Assembly: GCA_012960155.1 (NCBI GenBank) | Contig: DUBU01000001.1 | Coordinates: 103,646-136,363, forward strand | Source of the DNA: Micavibrio sp. | Lineage (GTDB): Bacteria; Pseudomonadota; Alphaproteobacteria; Micavibrionales; Micavibrionaceae | Direction of reading: 5' to 3' | Length of the DNA: 32,718 bases | Made by a program: the position numbers and the translations under genes | Shown: piece by piece, positions 3,498 through 21,633 of the stretch | How the letters are laid out: each line of letters starts with the position of its first letter | Numbering within the stretch: the first letter of the stretch is position 1 | Notes under the pieces: generated by a model | Told to the model about the DNA's origin: nothing | The model's database searches: none | Seen by the model: only the letters and a program-made list of their open reading frames with translations

Positions 3498-3510
3498 GGC
3501 AAATTTTTCC
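3498..3510. promoter_or_regulatory. Candidate activator dyad upstream of the flgI sigma-54 promoter
   Basis: An imperfect dyad GGCAA-ATT-TTTCC, followed by CG, is centred about 126 bases upstream of the predicted flgI start and 40 bases before the fliX ATG. Related GGCAA-N3-TT(G/T)CC elements lie at similar distances from the flgF and flgB promoters. By analogy with enhancer sites of sigma-54 activators it could bind a FlbD-type protein; this is inference. Confidence 0.4.
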
Positions 3511-3550
3511 CGTTCTTGACGTGGCGCGGTTTAAGAGAGAAGATGGAGTC

Positions 3551-3985
3551 ATGAAAATAGAAGGTCCAAATAAGTCTCAGAAGTCATCCGATACCAAGAA
3601 AAAAGGTAGTGTCTCTAAAGGGGACTCGACCTTTGGCGACATGGTCACGGGCGGCGCGAAGGAAGCATCAGGCGCATCACCGACGCAATCCGTGGCGCGC
3701 GTAGATGCGCTGCTGGCTGTGCAAGCGGCTGAAAGCCCGACGGAACGCAGCGCACGAAGAAAAATGACACAGCGTGCGGGCGTCATTTTGGACGAACTTG
3801 AAAATATCCGTACGGGGATTCTAACGGGCTCGCTTACTGTAGGACATCTGGTTGATGTGGCCGATGTTGTTGCCAGTCACCGCGAAAAAATTACAGACCC
3901 GAATTTAACATCGTTGTTGGACGAGATTGATCTGCGCGCTCAGGTCGAGCTGGCAAAACTCAAGAAGGCCATGGATAAACGCTAG
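3551..3985 (+). CDS. fliX: Flagellar assembly regulator FliX
   Basis: The protein starts MKIEGPNK, the typical FliX beginning, and is 144 residues long, close to the usual length of about 140. A disordered Lys/Ser-rich N-terminal third is followed by helices carrying QRAGVILDELENIRTGILTG and a C-terminal DEIDLRAQVELAKL. In Caulobacter, FliX couples completion of early flagellar structures to the activity of the sigma-54 activator FlbD, and its gene is also divergent from flgI. The ATG at 3551 is chosen because GGAG stands just before it and because the first residues match the family; a longer reading from 3449 is not supported. No flbD is in the window, so its partner must be encoded elsewhere. 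Confidence 0.9.
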   Translation: MKIEGPNKSQKSSDTKKKGSVSKGDSTFGDMVTGGAKEASGASPTQSVARVDALLAVQAAESPTERSARRKMTQRAGVILDELENIRTGILTGSLTVGHLVDVADVVASHREKITDPNLTSLLDEIDLRAQVELAKLKKAMDKR

Positions 3986-4060
3986 GACTATGTATTTTCC
4001 TGCTTGTCAGGGCAGGGGAGTCCGACTATATTTTTCAACGCTTTTCATTAGAAGGTTTGA

Positions 4061-4513
4061 ATGGGAAAGGAATTAAAGATGGCTTCACCTGCGAGTGTTA
4101 TGGTGCCACCCGATTATGATCCAAAGGCAGATAAGGGCGATTTTATGAACCCTGTCATGCTTGAGTATTTTCGTCTGAAATTGATTCAATGGCGTGCAGA
4201 ATTGCTGCGTGAATCTTCGGAAACAATCCAGCAAACGTTGCAGAGCACAGAATTGCAACAACCTGACTTGGCTGACCGTGCGTCTGCTGAAACAGATCAC
4301 GCGTTGGAATTACGTACACGTGACCGTGAGCGTAAGCTGATATCCAAAATCAACGAAGCGCTTCTGCGTATCGAAGATGGCGAGTATGGCTACTGTGAAG
4401 AAACAGGCGAGCCAATCTCTGTTGCCCGTCTGGATGCACGTCCTGTTGCGACGCTAAGCATCGAAGCGCAAGAGCGTCACGAGCGTATGGAAAAAACGCA
4501 CCGCGACGACTGA
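4061..4513 (+). CDS. dksA: RNA polymerase-binding transcription factor DksA, reduced zinc-site type
   Basis: The 150-residue protein has the DksA layout: a coiled-coil hairpin (about residues 38-105) with the tip motif D69-L-A-D72-R-A74, then the finger region starting YGYCEETGEPIS. DksA enters the secondary channel of RNA polymerase and, with ppGpp, redirects transcription during starvation. Of the four zinc cysteines only C112 remains; the others are T115, S133 and A136. This matches the zinc-independent form common in alphaproteobacteria. The ATG at 4061 has AAGG six bases upstream; the ATG at 4079 is also possible. A strong terminator follows immediately, so the gene is probably monocistronic. 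Confidence 0.93.
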   Translation: MGKELKMASPASVMVPPDYDPKADKGDFMNPVMLEYFRLKLIQWRAELLRESSETIQQTLQSTELQQPDLADRASAETDHALELRTRDRERKLISKINEALLRIEDGEYGYCEETGEPISVARLDARPVATLSIEAQERHERMEKTHRDD

Positions 4514-4535
4514 TTGTGAGCCTGATTGCATAAAC

Positions 4536-4580
4536 AAAACAGCCGCTACTACTTAATAGTAGCGGCTGTTTTGCTTCTAT
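4536..4580. terminator. Bidirectional intrinsic terminator between dksA and the stress-protein operon
   Basis: A perfect 16-base-pair stem (4536-4551 with 4557-4572) has a 5-base loop and T-rich sequence on both sides. It serves dksA on the plus strand and the usp-membrane protein pair on the minus strand. Confidence 0.92.
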
Positions 4581-4605
4581 ATGTGCAATAAGTGCGCGTT
4601 ATATT

Positions 4606-4866
4606 TTATTTGTCTTGGGCGTTGAGTTGCCCGTCATTCATTTGGATCTCTATTCTGTAAGCGTGCCTCGTAAATAGCGCGAGGAATGCAGTTGCAGCAA
4701 GACTGCAGCCGCACAGTAATATTTTCTGGGTGGCACCACTGGTCATGAAGATACAAAGACTAAAGGGAGCAACCCAGAGAATAGACGTTAAGAGTGCAGA
4801 TATCACCACCGCAACTATTGACGCTTTTATAGGTGACGATTTAAGAGGGAAGTGTTCCATTATCAT
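4606..4866 (-). CDS. Small two-helix membrane protein of unknown function
   Basis: The 86-residue protein has two clear hydrophobic segments (about residues 15-39 and 46-65) and a short charged tail ending NDGQLNAQDK. I do not recognise a family. Its ATG overlaps the stop of the upstream universal stress protein gene in an ATGA arrangement, so the two are almost certainly co-translated. A second ATG two codons in (4860) is equally possible. The terminator at 4536-4572 closes this operon. Function is unknown; the coupling suggests a membrane partner of the stress protein, which is only an inference. Confidence 0.6.
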   Translation of the reverse strand: MIMEHFPLKSSPIKASIVAVVISALLTSILWVAPFSLCIFMTSGATQKILLCGCSLAATAFLALFTRHAYRIEIQMNDGQLNAQDK

Positions 4867-5675
4867 GTCCTCGCTATAAGAATGTCATAAGGCGGCGCTG
4901 CTTTTACGTGACTTTCTGCCTTTATCAGGTTGTCGTAAAGCTCTTTGCTCCTGATGTGCGAGGCGGTCAGAATGGTCAGGTTAGGTGGAGGTAAGTGTGA
5001 TCGCGTGCCCGTTGGAGATATATGGATGTTATGCTTATTGTAATTGCGACGGCTAAATATTTTTGCAAAAATTTCGGTTTCAATGCCCCCCTTAAGGAAG
5101 CGAGGAGGCCAGATGTTTTTGATGCTTTGAGCTGTGCTGACAAGGTATCCGTTTATTTGGATGCCGCTATCTTGCAGTAAGGGTGTAACTATTTTTGCGG
5201 CCTTTTTTATGTGCCTGTTTTTCACACCATAGATCGCGATGTCGCTATAGGGGGCTTCCGTTCTCTCTGATGCAATCAAAACTGGAAAGTCTGATTCCAG
5301 TAGCACTTTGTCTAAAGTGCCCAAGGCCTCGGCAGGGATATCCTCTGAGGGGGATGGGTATCCTAACACAATAAGGTCCGCAGAGATGTGCTCGGCATAG
5401 CTTCTTATGCGTTTGTTTACACGGCCACCTTCAACGATGTGTATTGTAAAGTCGAGCTCATTGCCGCGCATTTGTTGCTTTATGGCAGTGTTTATAGTGT
5501 CGTGAAGGACTTTTCGTTCCTGTTGCACATTGCTTTTGCCTCCTGGTAATCGAATTGTATTGTATACGTGCAGAATATGCAGCTCTGCTCCCGAAGTCGC
5601 TGAAAGCTCAACTGCTCTTTCTAGTAAATGGGCGTGTTGGTCGGAAAGCGCTGTAGCTAATAATATCTTGTTCAT
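4863..5675 (-). CDS. Universal stress protein (UspA family), tandem-domain type with diverged second half
   Basis: The 270-residue protein begins MNKILLATALSDQHAHLLERA, the usual beta strand and helix of UspA domains. LHILHVYN and the loop HISADLIVLGYPS follow, ending in DKVLLESDFPVLIA at about residue 144. The second half (146-270) has the length of another Usp domain but only weak similarity. The typical nucleotide-binding Gly-rich loop (G-2x-G-9x-G-S) is not clearly present, so ATP binding is uncertain. Usp proteins accumulate under starvation and oxidative or respiratory stress. The ATG at 5675 is preferred over 5690 because a GGGGAG ribosome site lies immediately upstream of it. The gene is coupled to the membrane protein gene downstream. 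Confidence 0.8.
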   Translation of the reverse strand: MNKILLATALSDQHAHLLERAVELSATSGAELHILHVYNTIRLPGGKSNVQQERKVLHDTINTAIKQQMRGNELDFTIHIVEGGRVNKRIRSYAEHISADLIVLGYPSPSEDIPAEALGTLDKVLLESDFPVLIASERTEAPYSDIAIYGVKNRHIKKAAKIVTPLLQDSGIQINGYLVSTAQSIKNIWPPRFLKGGIETEIFAKIFSRRNYNKHNIHISPTGTRSHLPPPNLTILTASHIRSKELYDNLIKAESHVKAAPPYDILIART

Positions 5676-5713
5676 GACAGCTCTCCCCATTGAATAGAGT
5701 TTGAGGTATTCAT
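5672..5713 (-). CDS. Possible 13-residue leader peptide before the universal stress protein gene
   Basis: An AAGGA site 7 bases before an ATG at 5713 opens a 13-codon frame (MNTSNSIQWGELS). Its TGA overlaps the usp start codon in an ATGA arrangement, and the GGGGAG site of usp lies inside it. It could couple translation of usp to an upstream start. It is very short, so chance is a real alternative. Confidence 0.25.
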   Translation of the reverse strand: MNTSNSIQWGELS

Positions 5714-5806
5714 ATTGATTTCCTTACATAAAGTATAATTACAGCAAGCTTTGCCGCAGCTGCGAAAGTTGCAGTTCGGTGTAAGTCATGCTCTGGCGTA
5801 TTTTTT

Positions 5807-6232
5807 TTATGTAAGGGAGAACGGCGGCGCGCGTGGCTTTATTACAGTGCGGTAGGCTTTTGCTATAAAGATAGTGTTGCGTGCAGTTATGATCTGCTGA
5901 AATGTTGATGATTTTAGTAAGGATTCCGTCGAAATGACGTCGCCTTGTGGTGCGTCAGTATCTTTGTCCTCATTGCCGTTGGTCAATTTGTAGATTGATT
6001 GCGCGCGCGTAATAAACTTTACATCGTTATTAGCTTCAATCGTAGGTGCTTTAAGAGGTGTAGGCTCGTTGACTACAGCAGGGTTGATCGCTTCAGAAAA
6101 CTGGGCTTGTGGTGTGTAGAAAGAAATGAATAAGACAAGCAGGACTAAAAGGCTGCCAAGTAATTTTTGCGGCCTTTTAAGAACTATACTGGCTTGTTCG
6201 CACCTTGATATGATGTTTACACATTCTTCCAT
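5807..6232 (-). CDS. Hypothetical single-pass membrane protein
   Basis: The 141-residue protein has a basic cytoplasmic start (about residues 1-24), one hydrophobic helix LLGSLLVLLVLFISFYT (about 25-41), and a hydrophilic, probably periplasmic tail of about 100 residues without cysteine pairs or repeats. I recognise no family. The ribosome site is weak and composition is more AT-rich than in the flagellar genes, which leaves some doubt. It lies 51 bases downstream of the methyltransferase gene in the same direction and could be co-transcribed with it. No longer frame competes on the other strand. Confidence 0.5.
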   Translation of the reverse strand: MEECVNIISRCEQASIVLKRPQKLLGSLLVLLVLFISFYTPQAQFSEAINPAVVNEPTPLKAPTIEANNDVKFITRAQSIYKLTNGNEDKDTDAPQGDVISTESLLKSSTFQQIITARNTIFIAKAYRTVIKPRAPPFSLT

Positions 6233-6283
6233 ATCTAAGAAATAGCACGGAAGAAATTGATAACAAGCGTTTTGTGTCTAAAC

Positions 6284-6943
6284 TTATCTGTAACGCGGAT
6301 AAGGCTTTTTTAATATGACCTGGTGCCACACATGATCGCGGCCCGCAGGGTCGGCAAGCGGCTCTGTACGGTTGACTTCAAATCCTGCTGTGCGGCTCTG
6401 ATCGTCAAAGGTCGCATGATCAATATCAACCATACCCTCTTTAAGATTTTCTGTGCGGTAACGCACGACACAATGTCCTGCCGTCGCGGTCACCTTAAAC
6501 AGGTTTGAAAGGCTGTCTTGATGTTTCTCCAGCGGTATGAACATGAACACGGCATTACAGAGGACGAAATTACCTTCGACACCTTTGGCAACGCGGTTAA
6601 ATTCAGACAGCGTATCGATACCGCAGACGATATGGGGGATTTTGCCGCGGCGGGCAATATCGTCAAACTTTGCAGCCGTATCGGCAATCTCGATCATATC
6701 GCCGTAAAGCGCAGTCGCATCGGCAGCGCGCGCAGGATCGGGGTCTGTGTTGATTACGTAAGGTAGTCCCTTCATGACGCGTTTGGCGCGCACGGCATCA
6801 CGGCCGGCGCCGCCGCCAATATCCAATACAACTCCGTTTTTCGGCATCATATGGTCGATATCTGCATAATATTCGTCAACGTCAATCTCAGCGTGTTGAT
6901 TAGAATTGAGACTGCCTTTGCTGTGCTCGTATTCTTTGGTCAT
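6284..6943 (-). CDS. Class I SAM-dependent methyltransferase
   Basis: The 219-residue cytoplasmic protein contains methyltransferase motif I as VVLDIGGGAGRDAVRA at about residues 38-53, an acidic loop INTDPDPAR (motif II) and VLCNAVFMFIP (motif IV/V region) near residue 131. This is a Rossmann-type fold that moves a methyl group from S-adenosylmethionine to an unknown acceptor. Small-molecule methyltransferases of the Methyltransf_11/25 type are closest in appearance. The ATG at 6943 is chosen because GGAG lies 9 bases upstream and a first in-frame codon at 6967 has no such site. It sits outside the flagellar operons, behind the terminator of flgFGAH. Confidence 0.8.
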   Translation of the reverse strand: MTKEYEHSKGSLNSNQHAEIDVDEYYADIDHMMPKNGVVLDIGGGAGRDAVRAKRVMKGLPYVINTDPDPARAADATALYGDMIEIADTAAKFDDIARRGKIPHIVCGIDTLSEFNRVAKGVEGNFVLCNAVFMFIPLEKHQDSLSNLFKVTATAGHCVVRYRTENLKEGMVDIDHATFDDQSRTAGFEVNRTEPLADPAGRDHVWHQVILKKPYPRYR

Positions 6944-6994
6944 AAAACCTCTCCTTGTATGGCGCATTTATACTAAATCTGCGATGCGCTAAGC

Positions 6995-7024
6995 AAGAAA
7001 AACCCTCTGCACAAGGCAGAGGGT
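6995..7024 (-). terminator. Intrinsic terminator of the flgF-flgG-flgA-flgH operon
   Basis: On the minus strand a perfect 9-base-pair stem ACCCTCTGC/GCAGAGGGT with a 5-base loop is followed by a run of T. It lies 56 bases after the flgH stop and separates the ring operon from the methyltransferase gene. Confidence 0.9.
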
Positions 7025-7079
7025 AAAGTTTGAAGGGTGGGTTTGGGTATTTCCCTAAAGTTAACCGGGATGGATCACT

Positions 7080-7841
7080 TTAGAATGGGAACAGGATGTC
7101 ATAGACCTGCTGGCCATAGCGCGCTTGTTGAACGTCTGTGATGTGGCCTTCGCCGCCGTATGCGATACGGGCTTCAGCGATCTGGTCATGATTAATTGTG
7201 TTGTTAATGGAGATGTCCTCAGGACGGATCACGCCGTCTACATTCAGGATGCGCTTTTCAAAGTTCACGCGAACCTCTTGAGAGCCATGGATCACAAAGT
7301 TACCGTTTGGTAGAACCTGGGTGATGACAGCGGCCATCTTCATTGTGATTTCTTCTTCGCGCTCAATGGAGCCTTGGCCATTAGTCGTAGAGTTAGAGCC
7401 AAAGGACGCTAGGTTGCCCGGGTCAATGGCTTCTGGAAGAATGCGTCCCAATGCGGCTTCGTAACCGGCGAGAGCAGGGAGCTCTGCGCCTTCGCTACTG
7501 CCGCGTGTGCGTTCTGTTTCGTTATCCAGCTGAGCTTCATCTTGAATGTCGATCATGACCGTGAGGATGTCACCGACCTCATCTGCGCGCTGATCATCAA
7601 AAAAGTTTTTGCGATTTGATGACCATAGCGAGTTCGGCTGTGTCACTTCTTCCTGCGGGGCAGGCATTGGCATGCTCACTGGCTTGTAATCTGATTTAAG
7701 CTGCGGGTTCTCGATGCGTGTTAGTTCCGGCGCGGAGCCCACATTGGCTAGGCGGTCTACAGTGTTGCCGCAAGCAGAGAGCGAGAGCCCCATGGTCACA
7801 GCCAGCGCTGTAATTTTTATATGTCTTGTAAATGTTGTCAT
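7080..7841 (-). CDS. flgH: Flagellar L-ring lipoprotein FlgH
   Basis: The 253-residue protein starts with a lipoprotein signal ending LSAC (Cys24), so the mature protein is lipid-anchored to the outer membrane. Family blocks are SLWSSNRKNFFDDQRADEVG, the VMIDIQDEAQLDNETER stretch, MKMAAVITQVLPNGNFVIHG, and the C-terminal GEGHITDVQQARYGQQVYD. FlgH forms the L ring in the outer membrane and completes the LP bushing with FlgI. The ATG at 7841 is preferred to a TTG two codons upstream, because a full AAGGAG site precedes it and the signal peptide then starts cleanly. It is the last gene of its operon, 36 bases after flgA. Confidence 0.97.
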   Translation of the reverse strand: MTTFTRHIKITALAVTMGLSLSACGNTVDRLANVGSAPELTRIENPQLKSDYKPVSMPMPAPQEEVTQPNSLWSSNRKNFFDDQRADEVGDILTVMIDIQDEAQLDNETERTRGSSEGAELPALAGYEAALGRILPEAIDPGNLASFGSNSTTNGQGSIEREEEITMKMAAVITQVLPNGNFVIHGSQEVRVNFEKRILNVDGVIRPEDISINNTINHDQIAEARIAYGGEGHITDVQQARYGQQVYDILFPF

Positions 7842-7877
7842 ACCCAACTCCTTTTTTAAGGTTGTTTTTTTTATGTG

Positions 7878-8855
7878 TTATGGAGTGACCGTTACAGCGC
7901 CATCGCCTGTAACCATCGCCTCGATAGTTCTGTTACTGGAAAGGTTCACGACGCGGACAATGTCACCTTTGGCACCGTTCTGCATGGACTTGCCTTTGGC
8001 AGACAGGTTCAGGAAACCGTCCTCGTATTTAATTGTGATCGTCTGACCGCGTGAAATCAGCTGCGGATATTCAAGGTCGATGCGGCGCACAGGCTTGCCT
8101 GAGACGACCAGACGACGTGGGGCCATGCCTACAAGGTCATCAGCATCAAGTACGATATCATCCTGCAGCTCGCTGCTCTTCATATCAATCCAGTGAATAT
8201 CGTAAGAGTCGATGATGTCGCCGCTGGACATTGTGCTTTTTACGACAGGCACAGGGATCAGACGCTCGATTTTGCCACTGATCAAAAGCTCGGCCACGGG
8301 CTCTTCTTTTGAGGGCGCAACAAGACGGGCTTCAAAACGGTCGTTCTGACGGTCATAGTTCAGGTCGGTAACCTGCATGTCTTTGCTGTGGCCTGACGGT
8401 AGAACCAGCGCTGGGTCAGAGTTGCCGTAGAAGCTTAGCTCGAAACGATCTTCTAGACCTTCATCTTGCAGAGCTGTTGAAATGGCGCTCTGAATATCTA
8501 TGGCGCTGATCTTCACAGCATCACGGCGGATCACAACTTGATCCATCGTGCTGGATGGGCGCCAAGGCAGATCCATGGCAATCGCAATGCGCATTAATGT
8601 GCGCGCATTCAGCACCATGTCATTGCCGGGCATAGGAGCTGCGCCTAGCACGCGGCTAGCTTTCTCTTCGGATAGACCGCTGAACACGTCACCGACCGTA
8701 AAGACATTCTCGGAAATAACGGCTGTTGGCTTGATACTTGCCGCCATCGCATCACGTCCACCGACAAGAATGACAAGGGCGCCAAGGGTGATCGCTACGA
8801 TCAGCACGAAAATGCGGAATGTCAGATCTACTGTTCTTAATACGTCACTTGTCAT
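7878..8855 (-). CDS. flgA: Flagellar P-ring assembly chaperone FlgA
   Basis: The 325-residue protein has a hydrophobic N-terminal segment (FRIFVLIVAITLGALVILVG) followed by a possible cleavage site at RDAMA. A C-terminal SAF-type domain contains LVVSGKPVRRIDLEYPQLISRGQTITI and ends in TIEAMVTGDGAVTVTP. FlgA is a periplasmic chaperone needed for FlgI polymerisation. At 325 residues it is longer than enterobacterial FlgA (about 220) but normal for alphaproteobacteria, which carry an extra N-terminal region. AAGGAG precedes the ATG. It stands between flgG and flgH with short gaps of about 35 bases each. Confidence 0.93.
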   Translation of the reverse strand: MTSDVLRTVDLTFRIFVLIVAITLGALVILVGGRDAMAASIKPTAVISENVFTVGDVFSGLSEEKASRVLGAAPMPGNDMVLNARTLMRIAIAMDLPWRPSSTMDQVVIRRDAVKISAIDIQSAISTALQDEGLEDRFELSFYGNSDPALVLPSGHSKDMQVTDLNYDRQNDRFEARLVAPSKEEPVAELLISGKIERLIPVPVVKSTMSSGDIIDSYDIHWIDMKSSELQDDIVLDADDLVGMAPRRLVVSGKPVRRIDLEYPQLISRGQTITIKYEDGFLNLSAKGKSMQNGAKGDIVRVVNLSSNRTIEAMVTGDGAVTVTP

Positions 8856-8889
8856 TTTGTCTTACTCCTTACGGTTTATTCGTTACGGC

Positions 8890-9675
8890 TTATCGAAGCT
8901 GAGTAGTTGTCTGCAGCATTTCATCACTTGTTCTGATGACGCTGGAGTTCATTTCGTAAGCACGCTGGGCAGTAATCAGGTCGGTAATTTCTTCCACCAC
9001 GTTCACGTTTGAATTCTCAAGCGCGCCTTGACGGACAAAGCCTGCATTTTCCTGACCGGGGTTGCTGAGCTGCGCTGTGCCGGATGCTTCTGTCTCTAAG
9101 AACAGATTGTCACCGACAGCTTCCAGACCGGCTGGGTTAATGAATGTGGCAAGTTCGATCTGGCCGAGATTGACCAGATCAACCTGACCTTGGATATCGG
9201 CATAAACTTCGCCGTTCTCGTTGATTTCAATTGAGATCGCGTCATCAGGGATAACAATATTCGGCTCCATCAAGTGACCGTTTGTTGTGACTAATTCACC
9301 ATTCTCGTTCACCTGAAAAATGCCGGATCGTGTATAGGCGATTTCGCCGTTAGGCAGTTCGATCTGGAAGAAGCCATCGCCAGTGATCGCAAGATCAAGC
9401 GGGTTTTCAGTCAGCTGCAAAGCGCCTTGTTCGTGGATTTTATAAACAGAACCCACATGAACACCAAGACCGAGCTGCAAGCCTGTCGGCAGCAATGTGT
9501 TCACGTCCGAAGACGGCGCACCCGGCTTATTGATGTTTTGATAGATGAGGTCTTTAAAGTCTACGCGCTGGCGTTTGAAACCTGTTGTGGTCATGTTGGC
9601 GATGTTGTTGGATATAACATCCACATTCATCTGTTGTGCCAGCATGCCGGTGGCTCCGATATCTAATGAACGCAT
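8890..9675 (-). CDS. flgG: Flagellar distal rod protein FlgG
   Basis: The 261-residue protein shows the rod and hook family N-terminus (ATGMLAQQMNVDVISNNIAN, then TTGFKRQRVDFKDLIYQ) and the C-terminal helix ending TAQRAYEMNSSVIRTSDEML. The middle motif TEN-PLDLAITGDGFFQI and YTRSG-F are those of FlgG. FlgG forms the distal rod crossing the periplasm and needs no Sec signal because it is exported through the flagellar channel. Length is standard (about 260). AAAGGAG lies a few bases before the ATG. It is the second gene of the operon. Confidence 0.97.
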   Translation of the reverse strand: MRSLDIGATGMLAQQMNVDVISNNIANMTTTGFKRQRVDFKDLIYQNINKPGAPSSDVNTLLPTGLQLGLGVHVGSVYKIHEQGALQLTENPLDLAITGDGFFQIELPNGEIAYTRSGIFQVNENGELVTTNGHLMEPNIVIPDDAISIEINENGEVYADIQGQVDLVNLGQIELATFINPAGLEAVGDNLFLETEASGTAQLSNPGQENAGFVRQGALENSNVNVVEEITDLITAQRAYEMNSSVIRTSDEMLQTTTQLR

Positions 9676-9709
9676 TTTAGTTCTCCTTTTAATCCTTAAT
9701 CAGGTCTTG

Positions 9710-10456
9710 TTAGTTGTTGCTGGTTAGGCGCTGTAACATCGAGCGCTGTCTATCATGTTCAGACTTCAGCATATTCTGTGTTGATTGATAGGCGCGCGAG
9801 ACCTCGATCATGCGCGTCATTTCTAATACGGGCTTAACATTTGATCCTTCGATCATGCCTTGCTTCACGCGGGTATTGATGGCTTCCTGCGGGGCGGCGT
9901 CGGTTTTATAAAGATTGTCACCGAAGGCTTCTAGCTCCTGCAGGTTCTCGAACTCACTAACCATCAGCTTGCCCAGAACACCGTCTTCATTGGCTATAGA
10001 GCCGTCTTCGCCGATTGTGATCGGGCCGCCTTCATCAGGAATGGTGATGATACCGCCACCCTCGTCCAGAACGTGCAGGCCTTGGCCTGTCACAAGTTCG
10101 CCATTGGCGTTGATCTGGAAAATGCCATTACGGCTGTATGCTGTTTCACCGTCAGGGGCTTGAACGCCGAAATATCCCGGACCGGCAAGGCCAGCGTTCA
10201 GCGGGTTGCCTGTGAACTCCATAGGGCCGGGGGCTGTGTCTTGATAATGACCGTAATCCAGTACCTGTGAAATTGTGCGCTCAACCTCGGAAATTTCATT
10301 CTGTTTACCGTCAGGCAGTGCAAGGTATTCGGTGAACACCATGTTCTGCGCACGATAACCGGGCGTGGACATATTCGCGATGTTGTTGGCAATCAAGTCC
10401 ATTTGTGATCGCAGGGCCACTTGTCTTGATAGACCGATGAAAATTGGATTTTCCAT
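9710..10456 (-). CDS. flgF: Flagellar proximal rod protein FlgF
   Basis: The 248-residue protein shares the rod-family N-terminus (GLSRQVALRSQMDLIANNIA, then MSTPGYRAQNMVF) and a C-terminal EMTRMIEVSRAYQSTQNML. The length and the first-gene position before flgG identify it as FlgF. It forms part of the proximal rod in the periplasm and is a type III export substrate. An AAGGACG sequence precedes the ATG. It is first in flgF-flgG-flgA-flgH, transcribed from the sigma-54 type promoter at 10508-10527. Confidence 0.95.
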   Translation of the reverse strand: MENPIFIGLSRQVALRSQMDLIANNIANMSTPGYRAQNMVFTEYLALPDGKQNEISEVERTISQVLDYGHYQDTAPGPMEFTGNPLNAGLAGPGYFGVQAPDGETAYSRNGIFQINANGELVTGQGLHVLDEGGGIITIPDEGGPITIGEDGSIANEDGVLGKLMVSEFENLQELEAFGDNLYKTDAAPQEAINTRVKQGMIEGSNVKPVLEMTRMIEVSRAYQSTQNMLKSEHDRQRSMLQRLTSNN

Positions 10457-10507
10457 TTTATTACGTCCTTAATTCAACTTCGTAATTGCTATTACTCCGT
10501 CCAGATC

Positions 10508-10527
10508 GTTGCATTCGCTGTGCCAAA
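10508..10527 (-). promoter_or_regulatory. Sigma-54 (-24/-12) promoter for flgFGAH
   Basis: The minus strand reads TTGGCACAGCGAATGCA, with GG (10524-10523) and GC (10512-10511) 10 bases apart. The -24 box is a perfect TTGGCAC with the same AG after it as in the flgI and flgB promoters. The predicted start is near 10499, about 43 bases before the flgF ATG. Confidence 0.75.
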
Positions 10528-10621
10528 TGGTTAATTGCAATAAAATCAATGCCTTATGAGTTTTGTGGGTGGGGAGGTTTTGGCATAACAGGCAAAAACA
10601 ACAGGGCAAATTGGGCGATAC

Positions 10622-10634
10622 GGCAAAAATTGCC
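10622..10634. promoter_or_regulatory. Candidate activator dyad upstream of the flgF promoter
   Basis: A perfect GGCAA-AAA-TTGCC inverted repeat is centred about 129 bases upstream of the predicted flgF start, nearly the same distance as the related element at flgI. It is a plausible binding site for a dimeric enhancer-binding protein. It also lies about 75 bases upstream of the -35 box of fliL. Confidence 0.45.
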
Positions 10635-10702
10635 ACATCAGGATTTGGTGTGCGGTCTGTGTATTTCCTTGTGTATGAAACGGGGGGTAAGCAAGTGCGG
10701 GA

Positions 10703-10731
10703 TTCACGAATGTGCGGTATTTTGCTAATAT
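10703..10731 (+). promoter_or_regulatory. Sigma-70 type promoter for fliL
   Basis: TTCACG (10703-10708), a 17-base spacer and TAATAT (10726-10731) preceded by an extended TGC. The start would fall near 10738, about 60 bases before the fliL ATG. No GG-N10-GC element was found for fliL, so this operon may be expressed earlier than the sigma-54 operons. Confidence 0.45.
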
Positions 10732-10799
10732 TGTTCATAAAATTAACGGCTTACCCGTGTCTGATGTGGTAAGATTTAAGGAATTTCAGGAGAAATGTA

Positions 10800-13844: not shown

Positions 13845-13887
13845 AATCCTTTTAGAACAACACATTATCGTATGCGATTTCTCATAT

Positions 13888-13912
13888 CGCTTTGGGCTTT
13901 GTGTCCAAAGCG
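13888..13912. other. Hairpin between motE and cheY
   Basis: An 8-base-pair perfect inverted repeat CGCTTTGG/CCAAAGCG has a 9-base loop, 44 bases after the motE stop. There is no T-run after it, so it is a weak terminator candidate at best; it could instead be a protein-binding dyad or an mRNA-stabilising hairpin. Confidence 0.4.
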
Positions 13913-14003
13913 CTACGATTCTGATCAGAGTTCGTTAACCCTTGCACTGGCAAATTTAAAGGGTAGGCGAAACCTCACATAGGAGTTGTAAAGGGGAACT
14001 GCG

Positions 14004-14369: not shown

Positions 14370-14384
14370 ATGAAAGAGGGTATA

Positions 14385-15002: not shown

Positions 15003-15038
15003 CGCGTGATTTTTTAATCATTTTAAGGCACACTGTAA

Positions 15039-15085
15039 GGGAAGGGTGATAAAGTCACTTTCCCTTTATTTTTATTTATTTTCAA
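15039..15085 (+). terminator. Intrinsic terminator after cheYZ
   Basis: A GGGAA...GGTGA stem pairs with TCACTTTCCC (about 15039-15065, one bulge and one G-T pair) and is followed by a T-rich tract to 15085. It lies about 36 bases after the cheZ stop. Confidence 0.75.
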
Positions 15086-15115
15086 TACCTTCGTTTATTT
15101 TATTCATTTAAGTAT

Positions 15116-15922
15116 ATGGGACATTTTACCAGCTCAGCAGAACACAAGGTAAGGCGCGTCAAAGTGGTTGATACGAATGAACAGTCAGCTCCCGTAAGGT
15201 CTCGTCGTCGTCGCGGCAGCGCGGGGACGGCACGGTCTATGTCCAGCCAGTTGTTGGGTTTGTCGCTGTTTATTATGCTGCTGGCGTTTTTTATTGTTTT
15301 GAACGCAATCTCTAATTTCGAAGAAACGAAGATCAAGCCGATCATGGCTAATTTGGCGTATACCTTCGCCGCCAATATGGAGCAGGAAGTCGATGATCGC
15401 CCCAACGTTCGCCAAAGTGAGAATACCTCCACACAGGAAGGCGATACGCTGGATCGAATGCGTGCTTTGTTTACCTCTCAAATTCCCGCACATGAGGCTG
15501 CTGTGAATAAAACACGTGGCGAAATGCATGTGCGTCTCCCTTATCAGGATTTTAAAGACGCTGTCATGGCGGTGGGGCAGCAAGATGTTCTGCCGACTAA
15601 GCAGCCGAACGGCCTGTTAAAAGGGTTTTTCCTGCCGACCTTGGTGGCACTGATGCGCAATGATGATCTGGGGCGCCCTTATCGTTTGGATATGCTACTG
15701 AACATTAAAGAAAACCCTGCTGAGGTGTTTAATGATGATCCGCAGCAAATGAACAAGATTACAAAGGATATGAGCGCCATCGCTGACAGAATTCAAAGCG
15801 CAGGTTTGCCCGTGCGCCTGATAAGCACAGGTGTGCAAGAGGGCGAAGCCGGAACTGTGGACTTGCTGTTTAGGCCGCATTTTCCTTATGTGCCGACAGA
15901 TGAGCTGGAGGCGAGCGAGTAA
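15116..15922 (+). CDS. MotB-like membrane protein lacking the channel aspartate and the OmpA domain
   Basis: The 268-residue protein has a very basic N-terminus (VRSRRRRG), one transmembrane helix at about residues 45-66 (LLGLSLFIMLLAFFIVLNAI) and a periplasmic part of about 200 residues. Aligned with the next gene's helix through the shared FF pair, Ser50 occupies the place of the proton-binding Asp. No OmpA-type peptidoglycan motif is seen, although LLFRPHFPYV near the end recalls its last strand. Its stop overlaps the next ATG, so the two proteins are made together and may form a heteromer. The start is uncertain: the ATG at 15116 has no ribosome site, and a GTG at 15161 with AAGGCG upstream is an alternative. 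Confidence 0.72.
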   Translation: MGHFTSSAEHKVRRVKVVDTNEQSAPVRSRRRRGSAGTARSMSSQLLGLSLFIMLLAFFIVLNAISNFEETKIKPIMANLAYTFAANMEQEVDDRPNVRQSENTSTQEGDTLDRMRALFTSQIPAHEAAVNKTRGEMHVRLPYQDFKDAVMAVGQQDVLPTKQPNGLLKGFFLPTLVALMRNDDLGRPYRLDMLLNIKENPAEVFNDDPQQMNKITKDMSAIADRIQSAGLPVRLISTGVQEGEAGTVDLLFRPHFPYVPTDELEASE

Positions 15923-16740
15923 TGAATACGCGTAATAAAAAATCAGAAACTGAAAAAGATGAAGAAGCGCAGCGTCCGATCACAGGCCGTCGCCGTTCCC
16001 GCCGCATGGGTGATATTCATGAGCAAGAGGAAAGTTCTCAGGTCTGGCTAATTTCGTTCACAGATGTCATGGCGCTTATGCTGACTTTTTTTGTTCTGTT
16101 GTTCTCCATGACAGAGCCAGCAAAACAAGACTGGTCAGAGGTGACATCGGCGCTACATTCCGAATTTAATAAATTCTATGGTTCTTTCCAGACATTGGGG
16201 CCACAAGACACAATTAATATCTCCCGTATGAATTTTAATCAGGCACTGAATATCGACTATTTGGAAAGCTTGCTTGCCAGCGCCAATGCACAGAGCCGTT
16301 TTCTTGATAACGTAACGCTCAACAAAATGGGTGACCGCTTGGTAATTTCGCTACCGCGAGAATTGCTGTTCGAACCGGGGCAGGCGAGCGTAAAAGAAGA
16401 CGGGACGCGCGCGCTTTATGCGCTTGGCGGCACATTATCCCGCGTGCGCAATCAAATTGAAATCGTTGGTCACGCTGATCCGCGACCCGTTAGCGAAGGA
16501 AACCGCTACGATTCGAATTGGGAACTATCTCTGGCCAGGGCCGCCAGTGTGGCAGGTATTTTGGAAACAGTCGGTTACGATAAGGATTTGATTATTCGTG
16601 GGTCCTCCAGTGGCCGTTATGAGGATTTGGCAGATATAGGCGATGAGGAACGCAGACTGGATTTATCGCGTCGTGTCGATATTGTGGTGTTAAGCCACGA
16701 TGGCAGACGGCAAAAAATCTTTGATGAAACAACGCCATAG
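15922..16740 (+). CDS. MotB-family stator protein with OmpA-like peptidoglycan-binding domain
   Basis: The 272-residue protein has a basic N-terminus, a MotB-type helix VWLISFTDVMALMLTFFVLL (about residues 41-60) with D48 where MotB has its proton-carrying Asp, and a C-terminal OmpA/MotB domain. In that domain IEIVGHADPRP (179-189), NWELSLARAASV (199-210) and SRRVDIVVL (249-257) are the standard binding blocks. MotB anchors the stator to peptidoglycan and forms the ion channel with MotA. No motA is adjacent; instead a MotB-like partner lacking the Asp is encoded directly upstream with a TAATG overlap. It is either the true MotB or a stator-accessory paralogue. Confidence 0.85.
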   Translation: MNTRNKKSETEKDEEAQRPITGRRRSRRMGDIHEQEESSQVWLISFTDVMALMLTFFVLLFSMTEPAKQDWSEVTSALHSEFNKFYGSFQTLGPQDTINISRMNFNQALNIDYLESLLASANAQSRFLDNVTLNKMGDRLVISLPRELLFEPGQASVKEDGTRALYALGGTLSRVRNQIEIVGHADPRPVSEGNRYDSNWELSLARAASVAGILETVGYDKDLIIRGSSSGRYEDLADIGDEERRLDLSRRVDIVVLSHDGRRQKIFDETTP

Positions 16741-16766
16741 GGCTCTCAGCCGTGGCTTTTATTTAA

Positions 16767-16780
16767 TTCTGTGCTAGAAT
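16767..16780 (+). promoter_or_regulatory. Extended -10 promoter for the TPR protein gene
   Basis: TTCTGTGCTAGAAT contains an extended -10 (TGC-TAGAAT, hexamer 16775-16780) 37 bases before the ATG of the TPR gene. The same 14 bases occur at 28178-28191 before another gene. No good -35 is visible. Confidence 0.4.
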
Positions 16781-16817
16781 CAAAACTCGTATTAAGCCCT
16801 CTGCCTAATATAAATTT

Positions 16818-19800
16818 ATGCGTCGTATAACGATTTACAGCCTGATGATCTGGATTGGCTTCTGCTCTGTAGCAGCGGCACAGGATGCTGTTACCCTGCG
16901 CACAGGCTCGCACGCGGACTATACACGCGCTGTTTTTGACTGGCCGTCTTCTGTGCCTTACACGCTGCAAAAGACCAATGACAGCACGCTGACCGTATCG
17001 TTCCAGAATAACGCTAGCCTTCGTATGGGCGAAACAGAACATGGTGCAAGTGAGGCGATTACCAATGTGCGCACTCTGTCTGCTGCAGGCCAGCCGCTCA
17101 GCGTGGCTTTTGATATCGTTGCCGGTAGCCGCTACAGACATTTCCTTGTCGGGTCACGCGTCGTTATTGATGTTTACAAAAACGGCACAGCACAGCCACA
17201 AACGCCCGCTAAACCTGCGACAACAGCAGTAGCACCATCTCAGCAAGACGCGCCGCAGCCACCGCCACAAAAGCCGAATGTAACGGCACCTGTAAAAGAG
17301 GCTGCTCCTGAAGCTGTGCAGACAACACAGGCTGAACCTCCGCCTATGCCGGCGAAGAGAACAGCGCCACAAAAGTCCGTTGAGATCACGACGACGAGTG
17401 ATGGCCCTAAAGTTGAATCAAACCCTGTGCTATCTGTCTTGGCGCAAGCCATCCCCGAAGTTGACCCGCACGTCATCACAATTTCGTCAACCGAGTCTGT
17501 CGGTATGGCAGCCTTCATTCGCAATGACACGCTATGGATGGTGCTCGATAAAGCGTCTATCAATGTCGATCCGCAGGTTGCAGGCCCGCAAGTCAGCTTG
17601 TTTGGTCTGCCGCAACGTCACGAAGTTAAAGGCGGCGTTGCTTTCAGCATTGAACTGCCACACAGCAGAAACTACGAACTGAACTATTACGGTGAAGGCG
17701 GTGGCCTTGTCTGGCGTATCGTGGCAACACCAAGCGAGCGCGCTATTGAGCCTGCCGAACTGGAACGTACATTCGAAGTCAATAAATTCGTCCGCGGTGG
17801 CACGCTGGTCTGGGATATCAGCCGCGCAGGTCAAGTCTTGGAATTCACAGATCCTGAAGTCGGCGATACAATCATGGCCGTTACTGTGAGCCAGTCAGAT
17901 CAGTTCGCGGGGCCCGCACGTCATATGGTTGATCTAACCCAGCTGCGCAGTGTTGTCGGATTAGCTATCACGCCTAAGGCAGATGATATCAAGTTGTCGA
18001 TTACACCGGGTGGTGTGGCCGCAACGCGCGGTAGTGGCCTTGCTGTATCGCGCCAGAAAGACGTCAGCCGCAAATTAATTCGCCGCGATGTACAGGAGGC
18101 AAGCCTTCTCAACATTACGCCTGATAACGCAGAACAGATGCGCCGTATCTATGATTTTGATCGCTGGTTACTGGGCGGCGTGCAAAACCTTGCTGATAAT
18201 CAGCGTATTCTGCTGTCCAATATGGCCAATAAGGATAAGAACGGCAAAGCACAAGATCTGCTGACGCTAGCCAAAATGTATATGGCCAATGATCGCGGCC
18301 CTGAAGCGCTGGGCTTTTTGGAGTTTGCCTTAAGCGAGCTACCCGATTTGAAAGACAGTCCGGAGTTCTTGGCACTGCGCGGTGGTGCGGCGGCTATTGC
18401 CGGTAAATATGAGATGGCATTCCGTGACTTGTTCCATCCGCTGCTGGAAAACTATGACGAGCTTGATTACTGGCGCAGCTATAATTTGGCATGGCTCGAA
18501 GACTGGCGTCAGGCTGTCGAGATGATGCCTGAGGATTTCACGGTTCTTGTCTCATACCCCAAGCCGCTGCTGGCTAAATTGGGTTTAAAGCTTGCTGAAG
18601 TGGCTCTGCGAGATGGTGATGTACAAACTGCCGAAGGCATTCTGGCTGTTCTACAAAAATCACGAGATACGTTACCTACATGGACTACGGCAGGTATGGA
18701 TTACCTGAAAGGTGAAGCGCATAGACAGAGTAATGAGCTGAACCTAACCAAAGAGCTTTGGGGCAAGCTAGCCAAAGGCGAAGATGATTGGCACCGCGCC
18801 AAAGCGGGGCTGGCACTGACGTTGCTGGAGCTTGATAATGGCGATATCTCGACAGAAACCGCGATCGACCGTCTGGAAGGCCTGCGTTATGCGTGGCGTG
18901 GCGATGAACTGGAGGCGCAGATCAACTATCTGCTTGGACGCCTATATCTCGAAAGTGATCGTTACTTGAAAGGCTTTGGCATCTTGCGCGAGTCCACTAG
19001 CATGAGTCCTGACTCTGATATTGGTAAAGAAATCACAGCCTTCATGCGTCAGGAATTTAAAGACCTGCTGATCAAGGACAAAGACCTTGATCCTTTGCAG
19101 GCAGTGGAAGTTTACGAAGAGTTTCGCGAATTGACACCGTCCGATGACGAAGGAAACCTGCTTGGGCAGCGTCTGGCTGAACGTCTGGTTGAGGCAGATT
19201 TGCTTGATCGAGCCGCAAACATCCTGCAGCATCAGGTTGATCACCGCATTACAGGGGAAGAGCGCGCCCGTATCGCGACACGCCTGGGCACGCTGTATCT
19301 GTTGAACGGTAATGCCCGTCCTGCGATGGCCGCGCTGCAAACGGCACGTGACACATATGCCCAGATTTTGGAAGGTGGGGAGCGCGCTGATAAATTGCGT
19401 GAAATTGATTTGCTCCGTGCGCGCGGCTACTCGCAACTGAATCGCACGGAAGAGGCGATTGATCTTTTAAATGGCTTCCCGCCGGATCCGACAATTAATC
19501 GTCTGCGCGCGGATATCGCTTGGCAGGCAGGTCTATGGGAAGACGCTGCTGAAGCGCTACAAGACCTGATCATCGACGCCTCACTGGATTTGAATAGACC
19601 TCTGAAATCCGAAGAGGCTGATTTGATCTTGAACCGTGCCGTTGCCTTGAACCTGTCAGGTAATCGCGTTGCGCTGACCAATATGCGCCGCCGTTACGGT
19701 GATGCGATGAAGAAAACAGCCCGTGCGCGTCTGTTCGATGTCGTCACAAGACAGCGCCAGAACTCGATCCTTGCGGATAAGGAAACAATTGAATCGATCG

Positions 19801-19871
19801 TAAAAGAAGTTGATATGTTCTCTGATTTCTTGGAGAGCTATAAGACAACTACAGACGGTGTCTCGAACTAA
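16818..19871 (+). CDS. Large secreted tetratricopeptide-repeat protein in the flagellar cluster
   Basis: The 1017-residue protein has a Sec signal peptide (cleavage near VAAA-QDA, residue 21) and a beta-rich AMIN-like segment (about 25-120). A Pro/Ala/Gln linker (about 122-185) is followed by a second beta-rich region (about 190-420) and an array of TPR-like helix pairs from about 440 to 980 (for example LLTLAKMYMANDRGPEALGF and RLGTLYLLNGNARPAMAAL). It is therefore probably periplasmic or outer-membrane associated. It lies 77 bases after the MotB-like pair on the same strand and ends against fliP. I cannot give it a function; a peptidoglycan-linked scaffold near the stator or rings is one possibility. 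No ribosome site is evident. Confidence 0.8.
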   Translation: MRRITIYSLMIWIGFCSVAAAQDAVTLRTGSHADYTRAVFDWPSSVPYTLQKTNDSTLTVSFQNNASLRMGETEHGASEAITNVRTLSAAGQPLSVAFDIVAGSRYRHFLVGSRVVIDVYKNGTAQPQTPAKPATTAVAPSQQDAPQPPPQKPNVTAPVKEAAPEAVQTTQAEPPPMPAKRTAPQKSVEITTTSDGPKVESNPVLSVLAQAIPEVDPHVITISSTESVGMAAFIRNDTLWMVLDKASINVDPQVAGPQVSLFGLPQRHEVKGGVAFSIELPHSRNYELNYYGEGGGLVWRIVATPSERAIEPAELERTFEVNKFVRGGTLVWDISRAGQVLEFTDPEVGDTIMAVTVSQSDQFAGPARHMVDLTQLRSVVGLAITPKADDIKLSITPGGVAATRGSGLAVSRQKDVSRKLIRRDVQEASLLNITPDNAEQMRRIYDFDRWLLGGVQNLADNQRILLSNMANKDKNGKAQDLLTLAKMYMANDRGPEALGFLEFALSELPDLKDSPEFLALRGGAAAIAGKYEMAFRDLFHPLLENYDELDYWRSYNLAWLEDWRQAVEMMPEDFTVLVSYPKPLLAKLGLKLAEVALRDGDVQTAEGILAVLQKSRDTLPTWTTAGMDYLKGEAHRQSNELNLTKELWGKLAKGEDDWHRAKAGLALTLLELDNGDISTETAIDRLEGLRYAWRGDELEAQINYLLGRLYLESDRYLKGFGILRESTSMSPDSDIGKEITAFMRQEFKDLLIKDKDLDPLQAVEVYEEFRELTPSDDEGNLLGQRLAERLVEADLLDRAANILQHQVDHRITGEERARIATRLGTLYLLNGNARPAMAALQTARDTYAQILEGGERADKLREIDLLRARGYSQLNRTEEAIDLLNGFPPDPTINRLRADIAWQAGLWEDAAEALQDLIIDASLDLNRPLKSEEADLILNRAVALNLSGNRVALTNMRRRYGDAMKKTARARLFDVVTRQRQNSILADKETIESIVKEVDMFSDFLESYKTTTDGVSN

Positions 19872-19883
19872 ACCCTTATTGGT

Positions 19884-20681
19884 CTAACCGCCCGGTACGG
19901 GGCCTATATCAAAGCTTTGAACAAGTGATCCGCAGATCAAATACCAGCCATCAACCAGTACAAAGAAGATAATCTTAAAGGGCAGGGATATCAGAATTGG
20001 TGGCAACATCATCATACCCATAGACATCAGAATAGACGCGGTCACCATATCGATGATCAGAAACGGCAGGAATAGCATAAAGCCGATTTCAAATGCGCGG
20101 CGCAGTTCTGAAATCATGAAAGATGGTATCAAAACCTGCAACGGTGTTTGCATCGGTTCTTCAACTTCCGTTCCGCTCATTTCCATGAACAGGTTTAAAT
20201 CATTTTCACGCACATGGCGCAGCATAAATTCCTTGAATGGATCAACCGCACGCTGGAACGCTGTCATCTCGTCAATCTCTTCATTGATCAGCGGCTGGAT
20301 GCCTGCTGTATAGGCGCTCTGTAATGTTGGCGTCATGATAAAGAATGTCAGGAATAGCGCGAGCGAGATCATCACAGTATTCGGCGGCGTTTGCTGGATA
20401 CCGATGGCTGTGCGCAGGAATGACAACACCACCACAATTCGGGTGAACGATGTCATCATAATCAGAATGGACGGCGCCAGAGATATAACCGTCAAAATGG
20501 CCAGAAGCTGGATAATACGGCCTGTTAAAGTACCGTTTTCACCAACGCCGTCACCTAAATCAAGCGTCAAGGCCTGTGCCATAACAGTTTCAGGCGTCAA
20601 GGACATAGCAGCAAAGGCCAAGACCCCGAATAGGGGAGGCCATAAAGATTTCAGCGATTTGCGATTTCTTTTATGCAGCAT
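19884..20681 (-). CDS. fliP: Flagellar type III export gate protein FliP
   Basis: The 265-residue protein has a cleavable N-terminal signal (ending about VMAQA) and then the FliP blocks ILTVISLAPSILIMMTSFTR and VVVLSFLRTAIGIQQTPPN, and ends with LPFKIIFFVLVDGWYLI. FliP makes the five-subunit core of the export gate with FliR and FliQ in the inner membrane. The length is standard. The ATG at 20681 overlaps the end of fliO by 11 bases. It is last in the flhX-orf93-fliO-fliP operon and convergent with the TPR gene, 12 bases apart, with no clear terminator between them. Confidence 0.97.
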   Translation of the reverse strand: MLHKRNRKSLKSLWPPLFGVLAFAAMSLTPETVMAQALTLDLGDGVGENGTLTGRIIQLLAILTVISLAPSILIMMTSFTRIVVVLSFLRTAIGIQQTPPNTVMISLALFLTFFIMTPTLQSAYTAGIQPLINEEIDEMTAFQRAVDPFKEFMLRHVRENDLNLFMEMSGTEVEEPMQTPLQVLIPSFMISELRRAFEIGFMLFLPFLIIDMVTASILMSMGMMMLPPILISLPFKIIFFVLVDGWYLICGSLVQSFDIGPVPGG

Positions 20682-20982
20682 CTTTAAGCGTTTCTACGTT
20701 GTCTTTATCCTGCTTTGATTCTATGTCGCTTTCAACCAGTGTCTCCCCATTTGCCCCCAGAATGACCAGATGTTCGCGATCATCGCGGCGTAAAAGGATC
20801 GCTTTGCGGCGGCCGTCCAGTGGCAGAATTTCCATGATCTGCAGACGCTTCTTACGCCCCCCAGCCGCAGGCATACGGGCATTTATGCGCTTCATAATCA
20901 GGGCAAGGCCGCCCATAAGGGACATCACCAATATAAAGGCTGCAATGAAACGTAGTAATTGTGCTCCGGCTATGACTTCCAT
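20671..20982 (-). CDS. fliO: Flagellar biosynthesis protein FliO
   Basis: The 103-residue protein has one N-terminal transmembrane helix (FIAAFILVMSLMGGLALIM) followed by the FliO cytoplasmic block RLQIMEILPLDGRRKAILLR and HLVILGANGETLVE. FliO is a scaffold that helps assemble the FliP ring. It overlaps fliP by 11 bases and the upstream coiled-coil gene by 13 bases. Short FliO forms of this kind are usual in alphaproteobacteria. Confidence 0.92.
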   Translation of the reverse strand: MEVIAGAQLLRFIAAFILVMSLMGGLALIMKRINARMPAAGGRKKRLQIMEILPLDGRRKAILLRRDDREHLVILGANGETLVESDIESKQDKDNVETLKDAA

Positions 20983-21251
20983 CGTGCGTCCCTTTCTGCC
21001 ATTTTGCGCTCGTGGAACAGTTTAAGCTCGGCTTCCAATTCGTCAAGGCGCGAGATCATTGTTGTCATTTCTGTTTCCAGTTGCGGCCGGCTCTCGGGGG
21101 CTGTTTTGACAATGCGCTGACACAATGTCTCTACATCGCGCTGCATATCGCGCATATCGGCGATCTTGTTCTGCCGTAAATCCGCAATACGCTGCTCGAT
21201 TTTCGCTGTATTGATACGAAGCTGTTCCAGCAGATTATCTGCATCATTCAT
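20970..21251 (-). CDS. Small coiled-coil protein encoded between the FlhB-like gene and fliO
   Basis: The 93-residue protein is soluble, strongly charged and predicted fully helical, with heptad patterns across residues 5-85 (LLEQLRINTAKIEQRIADLR and ISRLDELEAELKLFHERK). It has no signal peptide or membrane helix. I do not recognise a family; the size and form suggest a small export chaperone or a FliJ/FliT-like accessory. It overlaps both neighbours (8 bases with the FlhB-like gene, 13 with fliO), so it belongs to the export-gate operon and is probably made in step with it. Confidence 0.7.
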   Translation of the reverse strand: MNDADNLLEQLRINTAKIEQRIADLRQNKIADMRDMQRDVETLCQRIVKTAPESRPQLETEMTTMISRLDELEAELKLFHERKMAERDARWKS

Positions 21252-21633
21252 GATCGGTGTCTTCCTCTTCGTATTCTGACTCTAAAACGGCATCAAACGG
21301 GTTGGGCTCGCCATTGGCACGGTAAACATAGGATAGAATTTCAGCAACAGCCATAAAGGCTTCTGTGGGAATAGGGCTCTCCAGCTCGACAGAGGCCAGC
21401 ATTTCCGCCAACGCACCGTCTTCACGCACTTTAATGTCATTTTCAAAGGCCATCTGCAAGATTTGCTCGGCAATTCTTCCCCGTCCGGCGGCCGTTATAC
21501 GCGGCAATTCTTTCCCGGTCTTGGAATCTTCTAGCGCAACCGCGACCTGTCTTTTCGGTTTTATCCTTGAATTTAAAGGGGTTAGCGGGTCTTGCGCCGG
21601 ATTATCTTTATTCAAATCATCTTTGTCACTCAT
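21244..21633 (-). CDS. FlhB C-terminal domain homologue (FlhX/EscU-type export switch protein)
   Basis: The 129-residue soluble protein has a disordered start and then matches the cytoplasmic domain of FlhB: QVAVALEDSKTGKELPRITA, GRGRIAEQILQMAFENDI and VREDGALAEMLASVELESPI followed by PTEAFMAVAEILSYVYR. It corresponds to the part of FlhB after the NPTH cleavage site, without the membrane domain. Such proteins (FlhX) can substitute for or modulate the FlhB C-terminal fragment that sets substrate specificity. A full flhB is at 24533. The ATG at 21633 is preferred to a GTG at 21639 and lies exactly at the edge of the flgB sigma-54 promoter. Confidence 0.85.
   Translation of the reverse strand: MSDKDDLNKDNPAQDPLTPLNSRIKPKRQVAVALEDSKTGKELPRITAAGRGRIAEQILQMAFENDIKVREDGALAEMLASVELESPIPTEAFMAVAEILSYVYRANGEPNPFDAVLESEYEEEDTDHE
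21503..21515. promoter_or_regulatory. Candidate activator dyad upstream of the flgB promoter, inside the FlhB-like gene
   Basis: GGCAA-TTC-TTTCC followed by CGG is centred about 151 bases upstream of the predicted flgB start. The 24-base stretch 21501-21524 matches 3496-3519 near flgI at 20 positions. It lies within coding sequence, so part of the match could be chance. Confidence 0.35.

Follow-up and report, generated by a model that had tools for sequence, protein, structure and literature searches.

The 32,718-nucleotide stretch analysed here (the window; contig C1:103646-136363 of a Micavibrio sp. assembly of 2.58 Mb in 39 contigs) carries the flagellar genes flgI, fliX, flgF and flgB together with copies of a dyad whose core is GGMAA-N3-TTKCC, often flanked on the outside by CGG and CCG. 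A first-pass annotation had placed three such dyads at 3498-3510 (GGCAAATTTTTCC), 10622-10634 (GGCAAAAATTGCC) and 21503-21515 (GGCAATTCTTTCC), and had proposed them as enhancer sites for an activator of the FlbD/NtrC type acting on sigma-54 promoters. The letters and coordinates of all three proved exact. When mismatches to the pattern TGGCAC-N5-TTGCW were counted, a sigma-54-like site with one mismatch was found before each of flgI (3388-3403, minus strand; TGGCACAGCATTCGCA), flgF (10510-10525, minus strand; TGGCACAGCGAATGCA) and flgB (21634-21649, plus strand; TGGCACAGTTCCTGCA). Measured from the centre of the dyad to where the -24 GG begins, the distance is 102 bases at flgI, 104 at flgF and 126 at flgB (for the copy at 21503), and the 126, 129 and 151 bases to the sigma-54 starts given in the annotation fit these spacings. 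The three sites of the window and one more at flgK, outside it, have GG at -24 and GC at -12 with one mismatch each, and are conserved in relatives.

Dyads at the divergent flgI/fliX region and at flgF

The dyad at 3498-3510 (plus strand), a proposed FlbD site, is common to two divergent genes. To one side lies flgI, encoding the P-ring protein (2188-3327, minus strand; PF02119, E 3.4e-139), whose sigma-54-like promoter has a similar element in relatives and a predicted start. To the other side, a leader at 3511-3550 (plus strand) contains TTGACG at 3516-3521 and a weak -10-like GAAGAT at 3539-3544 (three mismatches), and is followed at 3551-3985 (plus strand) by fliX, the gene for the FlbD partner (PF10768, E 1e-36). 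For comparison we used fliX-related loci from Micavibrio species, from one Micavibrionaceae-labelled contig and from unclassified metagenome-assembled genomes of Alphaproteobacteria. Two of the 80 named loci were too short. In the remaining 78, the 300 bp upstream of fliX contained an exact dyad in 44 cases (0.2 expected from dinucleotide shuffles); with up to one mismatch allowed, the count rose to 71 (about 4 expected). A sigma-54-like site with up to two mismatches was detected on the flgI strand in 73/78 loci, some of these sites being doubtful, and the distance from the dyad centre to the -24 GG peaked at 112-116 bp (26 of 72 loci). The dyad also recurs upstream of fliX in other families of the class, where 29 loci were collected and 24 were retained after the removal of five that were too short or in which the gene start was not located. 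Here, 16/24 loci had a dyad with at most one mismatch (eight exact; about 0.9 expected), and in 19/24 the flgI strand carried a sigma-54-like element; one of the 16 dyad-bearing loci (L285), a doubtful one, was without this element.

The second dyad (10622-10634) lies upstream of flgF, with fliL on its other side. The gene (9710-10456, minus strand; PF22692, PF06429, PF00460) encodes a rod protein and was named flgF because of its place and length. Among 30 flgF loci, the dyad was exact in 18 (0.1 expected from shuffles) and had at most one mismatch in 27 (about 1.6 expected), and the sigma-54-like promoter was again present in relatives. The dyad-to-sigma-54 distance was 102-108 bp in 22 of these 27 loci and 115-117 bp in three.

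Dyads within coding sequence at flgB and flgK

The rod protein gene flgB (21697-22107, plus strand; PF00460, E 1.4e-5) was found in 60 of the 61 family genomes, and a sigma-54-like site with at most one mismatch preceded it in 30/30 loci. The annotated dyad at 21503-21515 (plus strand) turned out to be a second, poorly conserved copy: at its place in 29 relatives we found no exact match, one mismatch in two loci (L062 and L071) and two mismatches in three, as compared with about 0.5 (at most one mismatch) and 1.4 (at most two) expected from neighbouring windows. A few relatives may have a weak second site here. Located 34 bp upstream of it, the form GGCAA-N3-TTCCC (21469-21481, plus strand; GGCAATTCTTCCC) was present in 21/30 flgB loci, the window included, and in 16 of them at 165-167 bp from the sigma-54 element; GGCAA-N3-TTYCC was exact at this place in 15/29 relatives and had one mismatch in three more. 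The copy chosen in the annotation was therefore probably the wrong one, and the conserved flgB element is the one at 21469-21481. Thus, a lack of conservation in relatives counts only against the third dyad, the copies at flgI/fliX and flgF being conserved. The nearly constant position ascribed to the dyads holds loosely. The poorly conserved copy underlies the suggestion that the 22 extra bases at flgB represent two helical turns, which was not borne out. Strict helical phasing was not supported across loci either: the concentration R at 10.5 bp was 0.18 for flgI, 0.59 for flgF, 0.77 for flgB and 0.24 for flgK, in a computation whose tie-breaks favour certain spacings.

The conserved flgB dyad is overlapped by a gene on the opposite strand (21244-21639, minus strand) for a small protein with an FlhB C-terminal domain (PF01312, profile positions 261-335, E 4.6e-15). 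We evaluated its codons in 28 of 30 loci (two had no match to the codon motif), taking the expectation from the codon usage of each locus and the neighbouring codons as an internal control; shared ancestry is ignored in this test. The synonymous codons GGA-CGG-GGA-AAA-ATT-GCC-GAG were nearly fixed in these loci (P 0.0002-0.006), and the window has the same series with AGA in place of AAA (21466-21486, minus strand). CGG was used in 20/28 loci (4.3 expected) and GGA in 21/28 (7.1 expected).

A fourth site, which the annotation did not include, lies outside the window within flgK on contig C3, downstream of the sigma-54-like flgK promoter. A sigma-54-like site with no or one mismatch was present 50-103 bp before flgK in 30/30 loci, and in 23/30 a dyad with at most one mismatch was found inside the gene at +109 from the start codon, some 170-215 bp beyond the -24 element in the downstream direction. 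The codons 37-41 that make up this site (CGG-AAA-ATT-TTG-CCG) favoured these synonyms (P 0.0007-0.03), with CGG in 22/30 loci as compared with 4.6 expected.

The source genome has two dyads at each of these genes, 34 bp apart at flgB and 16 bp apart in flgK (L023:9807-9835); the second copies (at 21503 and L023:9823) are seldom or never present at the matching places in relatives. A regular second dyad at a fixed spacing was looked for and rejected, since only a weak excess was seen (+31 in 6/70 flgI loci and +32 in 2/28 flgF loci). In four loci of other families (L282, L283, L298 and L299), two dyads 18-21 bp apart stand upstream of fliX, like a tandem activator site.

Placement of the dyad and its probable role as an FlbD site

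On both strands of the window, 20 matches to the dyad with at most one mismatch were counted against 6.5 expected, and none of 100 shuffles reached 20. Sigma-54-like sites as a class were not enriched in the window (26 with at most two mismatches against 23.9 expected). The source genome has 13 distinct exact dyads, five of which are at flagellar genes with a sigma-54-like site (at most one mismatch) within 260 bp; two of these five are the copies within flgK. A sixth dyad with a nearby sigma-54-like match is that of L006, where the match resembles a ribosome-binding site. The annotation would have been refuted by a dyad as frequent elsewhere as near sigma-54 sites. This was not the case: of the 107 exact dyads of the seven relatives (of ten) with a complete dyad listing, 9 fall in 28 short promoter windows at fliX, flgF, flgB and flgK, where 0.044 were expected. 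None of the nine was at flgB, because the conserved flgB form ends in TTCCC and does not match the exact pattern.

The genome encodes RpoN and also FlbD (C1:86014-87447, minus strand), the latter sharing a stretch with fliN, fliH, fliG and fliF, four names read from the sequence. The FlbD protein has the domains Sigma54_activat (PF00158) and HTH_8 (PF02954) with an intact GAFTGA loop; a loop of this type was present in FlbD of 29/29 relatives, and the C-termini have a near-identical helix-turn-helix. Its receiver appears to be devoid of the usual acidic pocket, which is in line with the reported control of Caulobacter FlbD by FliX rather than by phosphorylation. FliX was found in 59/61 family genomes. 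FlbD matched strongly in 58/61 (E of 1e-137 or below), the other three (G020, G037 and G053) having weaker matches only. In the other families, the FlbD helix-turn-helix was detected in 19/24 genomes at 71-86% identity.

Taken together, we consider it very probable, judging from the sequence, that the dyads are enhancer sites of the NtrC-type activator FlbD, equivalent to the ftr elements of Caulobacter. We infer that FlbD would bind the dyad through its Fis-type helix-turn-helix about 100-115 bp upstream at flgI and flgF, 160 bp upstream at flgB (21469-21481) and about 170-215 bp downstream, in the gene, at flgK. Bound FlbD would then loop to the sigma-54 RNA polymerase, and its GAFTGA/AAA+ domain would open the promoter once FliX, by analogy with Caulobacter, reports that the basal structure has been built. 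The annotated enhancers of FlbD/NtrC type are upheld in this respect for flgI and flgF, where dyads and sigma-54-like sites are both conserved with a preferred spacing between them, in a genome encoding FlbD, FliX and RpoN, but not for the dyad chosen at flgB. Most likely the initial idea was right in kind, with flgB to be corrected, flgK to be added and the helical argument to be dropped.

Several observations weigh against the assignment of the dyads to FlbD. The exact dyad is not enriched genome-wide, either in the source genome (17 strand-hits, compared with 19 in the reversed control) or summed over ten relatives (210 against 199); it is the placement of the dyad, rather than its abundance, that sets it apart. 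A dyad was missing from 3/30 flgF, 4/30 flgB, 7/30 flgK and 8/24 class-wide fliX loci, though four of the latter eight retain the sigma-54-like site, and 7/78 fliX loci have only a dyad with at least two mismatches. The distances from dyad to sigma-54 element at flgI scatter from 49 to 211 bp. Three genomes with a fliX dyad (G119, G120 and G104) are among the five of other families without a match to the FlbD helix-turn-helix, which tells against a strict link between FlbD and the dyad unless their FlbD was missed. Moreover, contig C33 encodes another GAFTGA activator, a response regulator with a receiver, an AAA+ domain and a helix-turn-helix, and GC-edged palindromes are bound by many proteins of the NtrC family. 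The dyads could then be enhancers for this or some other sigma-54 activator. This is highly improbable, however, since the four promoters that carry the site all serve flagellar genes, the gene for FlbD neighbours fliN, fliH, fliG and fliF, almost every family genome has FliX and FlbD, and other families show the site at fliX as well. A further possibility is that only the intergenic dyads are regulatory, and that those at flgB and flgK are due to chance or are by-products of coding for the protein motifs GKIA and RKILP. Both motifs are strongly conserved, so that part of the DNA conservation is forced, and the codon signal at flgK is moderate: codon 47, outside the site, scores higher (P 0.0002) and four others have P < 0.05. 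Near the flgB site, codons -6, -1 and 12 likewise lie outside it with P < 0.01 in a test that ignores shared ancestry. Nevertheless, rare or non-preferred synonyms are retained (CGG in flgK, CGG and GGA opposite flgB), and the two sites hold their place relative to the sigma-54-like site, which makes a coding origin unlikely and favours their role as FlbD enhancers.

Possible effect of the dyad on fliX

The annotation had noted that the dyad shortly before fliX could regulate this gene as well, and such a possible effect is supported by the position of a sigma-70-like box abutting the dyad. We evaluated 70 loci, the window included, after excluding those in which the gene start was partial or no dyad lay within 180 bp. 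In 40/70 loci a TATAMT box with at most one mismatch begins 22-32 bp past the dyad, as compared with 5.9 in shuffles, and in 18 it begins at exactly 25 bp. With this spacing, the dyad would occupy approximately positions -50 to -38 of a sigma-70 promoter. A -10 box adjoining the flgF dyad on its fliL side was rejected, as inspection by eye revealed no comparable clustering. Upstream of fliF, an exact dyad was present in none of the 29 valid loci (of 30; L356, wrongly cut at a contig edge, was dropped) and one with a single mismatch in 3/29, where about 1.3 were expected with at most one mismatch. A dyad at fliF was rejected. In Caulobacter the ftr4 element acts at fliF, and we therefore propose, tentatively, that the feedback by FlbD is exerted at fliX here. 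We regard the absence of the fliF dyad as a difference in wiring and not as a defining feature of the site.

FlbD may thus act on fliX while activating flgI. In a fuller version, which we put forward tentatively as possible, though we would not call it probable, one FlbD site in Micavibrionaceae would serve both as the flgI enhancer and as a promoter-proximal fliX site, of a blocking or class-II-like kind, with effects of opposite sense. Activation by FlbD would thereby switch off or retune its partner FliX, the feedback having moved from fliF to fliX, and two of the four enhancers would lie in coding DNA under synonymous-codon selection, one of them antisense. Alternatively, the dyad acts on flgI only and lies near a fliX promoter by chance, because the intergenic region is short, an explanation that in our judgement falls only just short of probable. 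The divergent region is indeed short, the -10 box of the window itself is poor, exact TTGAC lies within 10 bp of the dyad in only 6/70 loci, and exact TATAMT at 24-25 bp was found in only 2 of the 15 loci inspected from other families, so that the geometry of dyad and -10 box is not class-wide. On the other hand, the clustering of the box in 40/70 loci persists though the distance from the dyad to the sigma-54 element varies widely there, and the fliL side of the flgF dyad, as mentioned, shows nothing comparable. In two loci (L304 and L298) we saw by eye TTAA-N7-TTAA after the dyad, where the Micavibrio relatives have a TATAAT-like box; TTAA-N7-TTAA is the CtrA box.

Comparison with known flagellar systems

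The Caulobacter gene flaN is flgK. To judge from its title, given among the references of PMC3096577, a 1993 study by Mullin and Newton, which also treats flbG, reportedly found that flaN needs the downstream elements ftr2 and ftr3. The dyad within flgK described here is like such downstream ftr elements of a flagellar gene. The FlbD/ftr features found in our analysis are FlbD with GAFTGA and a Fis-type helix-turn-helix, FliX, and sites at the sigma-54 promoters of flgI, flgF, flgB and flgK. In Caulobacter crescentus, according to passages of PMC3930126, PMC7064773 and PMC6180460, an NtrC-type activator with FliX as its partner likewise serves the sigma-54 promoters of genes for the rod, the rings and the hook. 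FlbD is described there as binding ftr sites and stimulating the middle genes, and as repressing fliF via ftr4 (passages of PMC3930126). Its control is attributed to FliX rather than to phosphorylation in passages of PMC3930126 and PMC7064773, whereas a passage of PMC6180460 still has FlbD phosphorylated by an unknown kinase. In contrast to Caulobacter with its ftr4 at fliF, fliF lacks the exact dyad in the loci analysed here, the flgB enhancer is within an antisense FlhB-like gene, and a TATAAT-like box stands next to the dyad of fliX. The activators FlgR, FlrC and FleR of Campylobacter, Vibrio and Pseudomonas resemble FlbD in that, as outlined in PMC7064773, they act with sigma-54 on rod and hook genes and are linked to assembly; they have cognate kinases, whereas FlbD is without one and FliX provides its coupling to assembly (same passages).

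Among the literature matches listed, no title or abstract dealt with FlbD sites in Micavibrio or with codon constraint at such sites. The kind of system is known; what is added is its description in Micavibrionaceae, together with the sites embedded in coding DNA whose synonymous codons are constrained and the geometry of the promoter at fliX. The circuit of FlbD and FliX, elucidated in Caulobacter, is in this way extended to the Micavibrio lineage, along with a site core that can be searched for and is found again in other families of Alphaproteobacteria. Probable regulatory sites constrain the choice of codons in two genes, and the proposed feedback of FlbD on fliX can be tested.

Other sites in and around the window

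The flagellin gene of the source genome has no clear sigma-54 site (at most one mismatch) upstream. A perfect TGGCAC-N5-TTGCW occurs at 18811-18826 (plus strand) within an open reading frame of 1017 residues with no dyad near, and is probably due to chance. The exact dyad L006:1501-1513 (C11:6958-6970) lies about 140 bp before a secreted-looking DUF4402 gene (PF14352), with no convincing sigma-54 site. Downstream of flhB, a hybrid histidine kinase, which presumably resembles CckA, is encoded at 25656-28151 (plus strand). Finally, dyads with one mismatch are present at 193-205 and 548-560 in a fliK-like open reading frame, upstream of a sigma-54-like site with one mismatch at C1:103461-103476 (minus strand). 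This site precedes flgD, the gene names being read from the sequence, and may be a further FlbD-controlled hook promoter.

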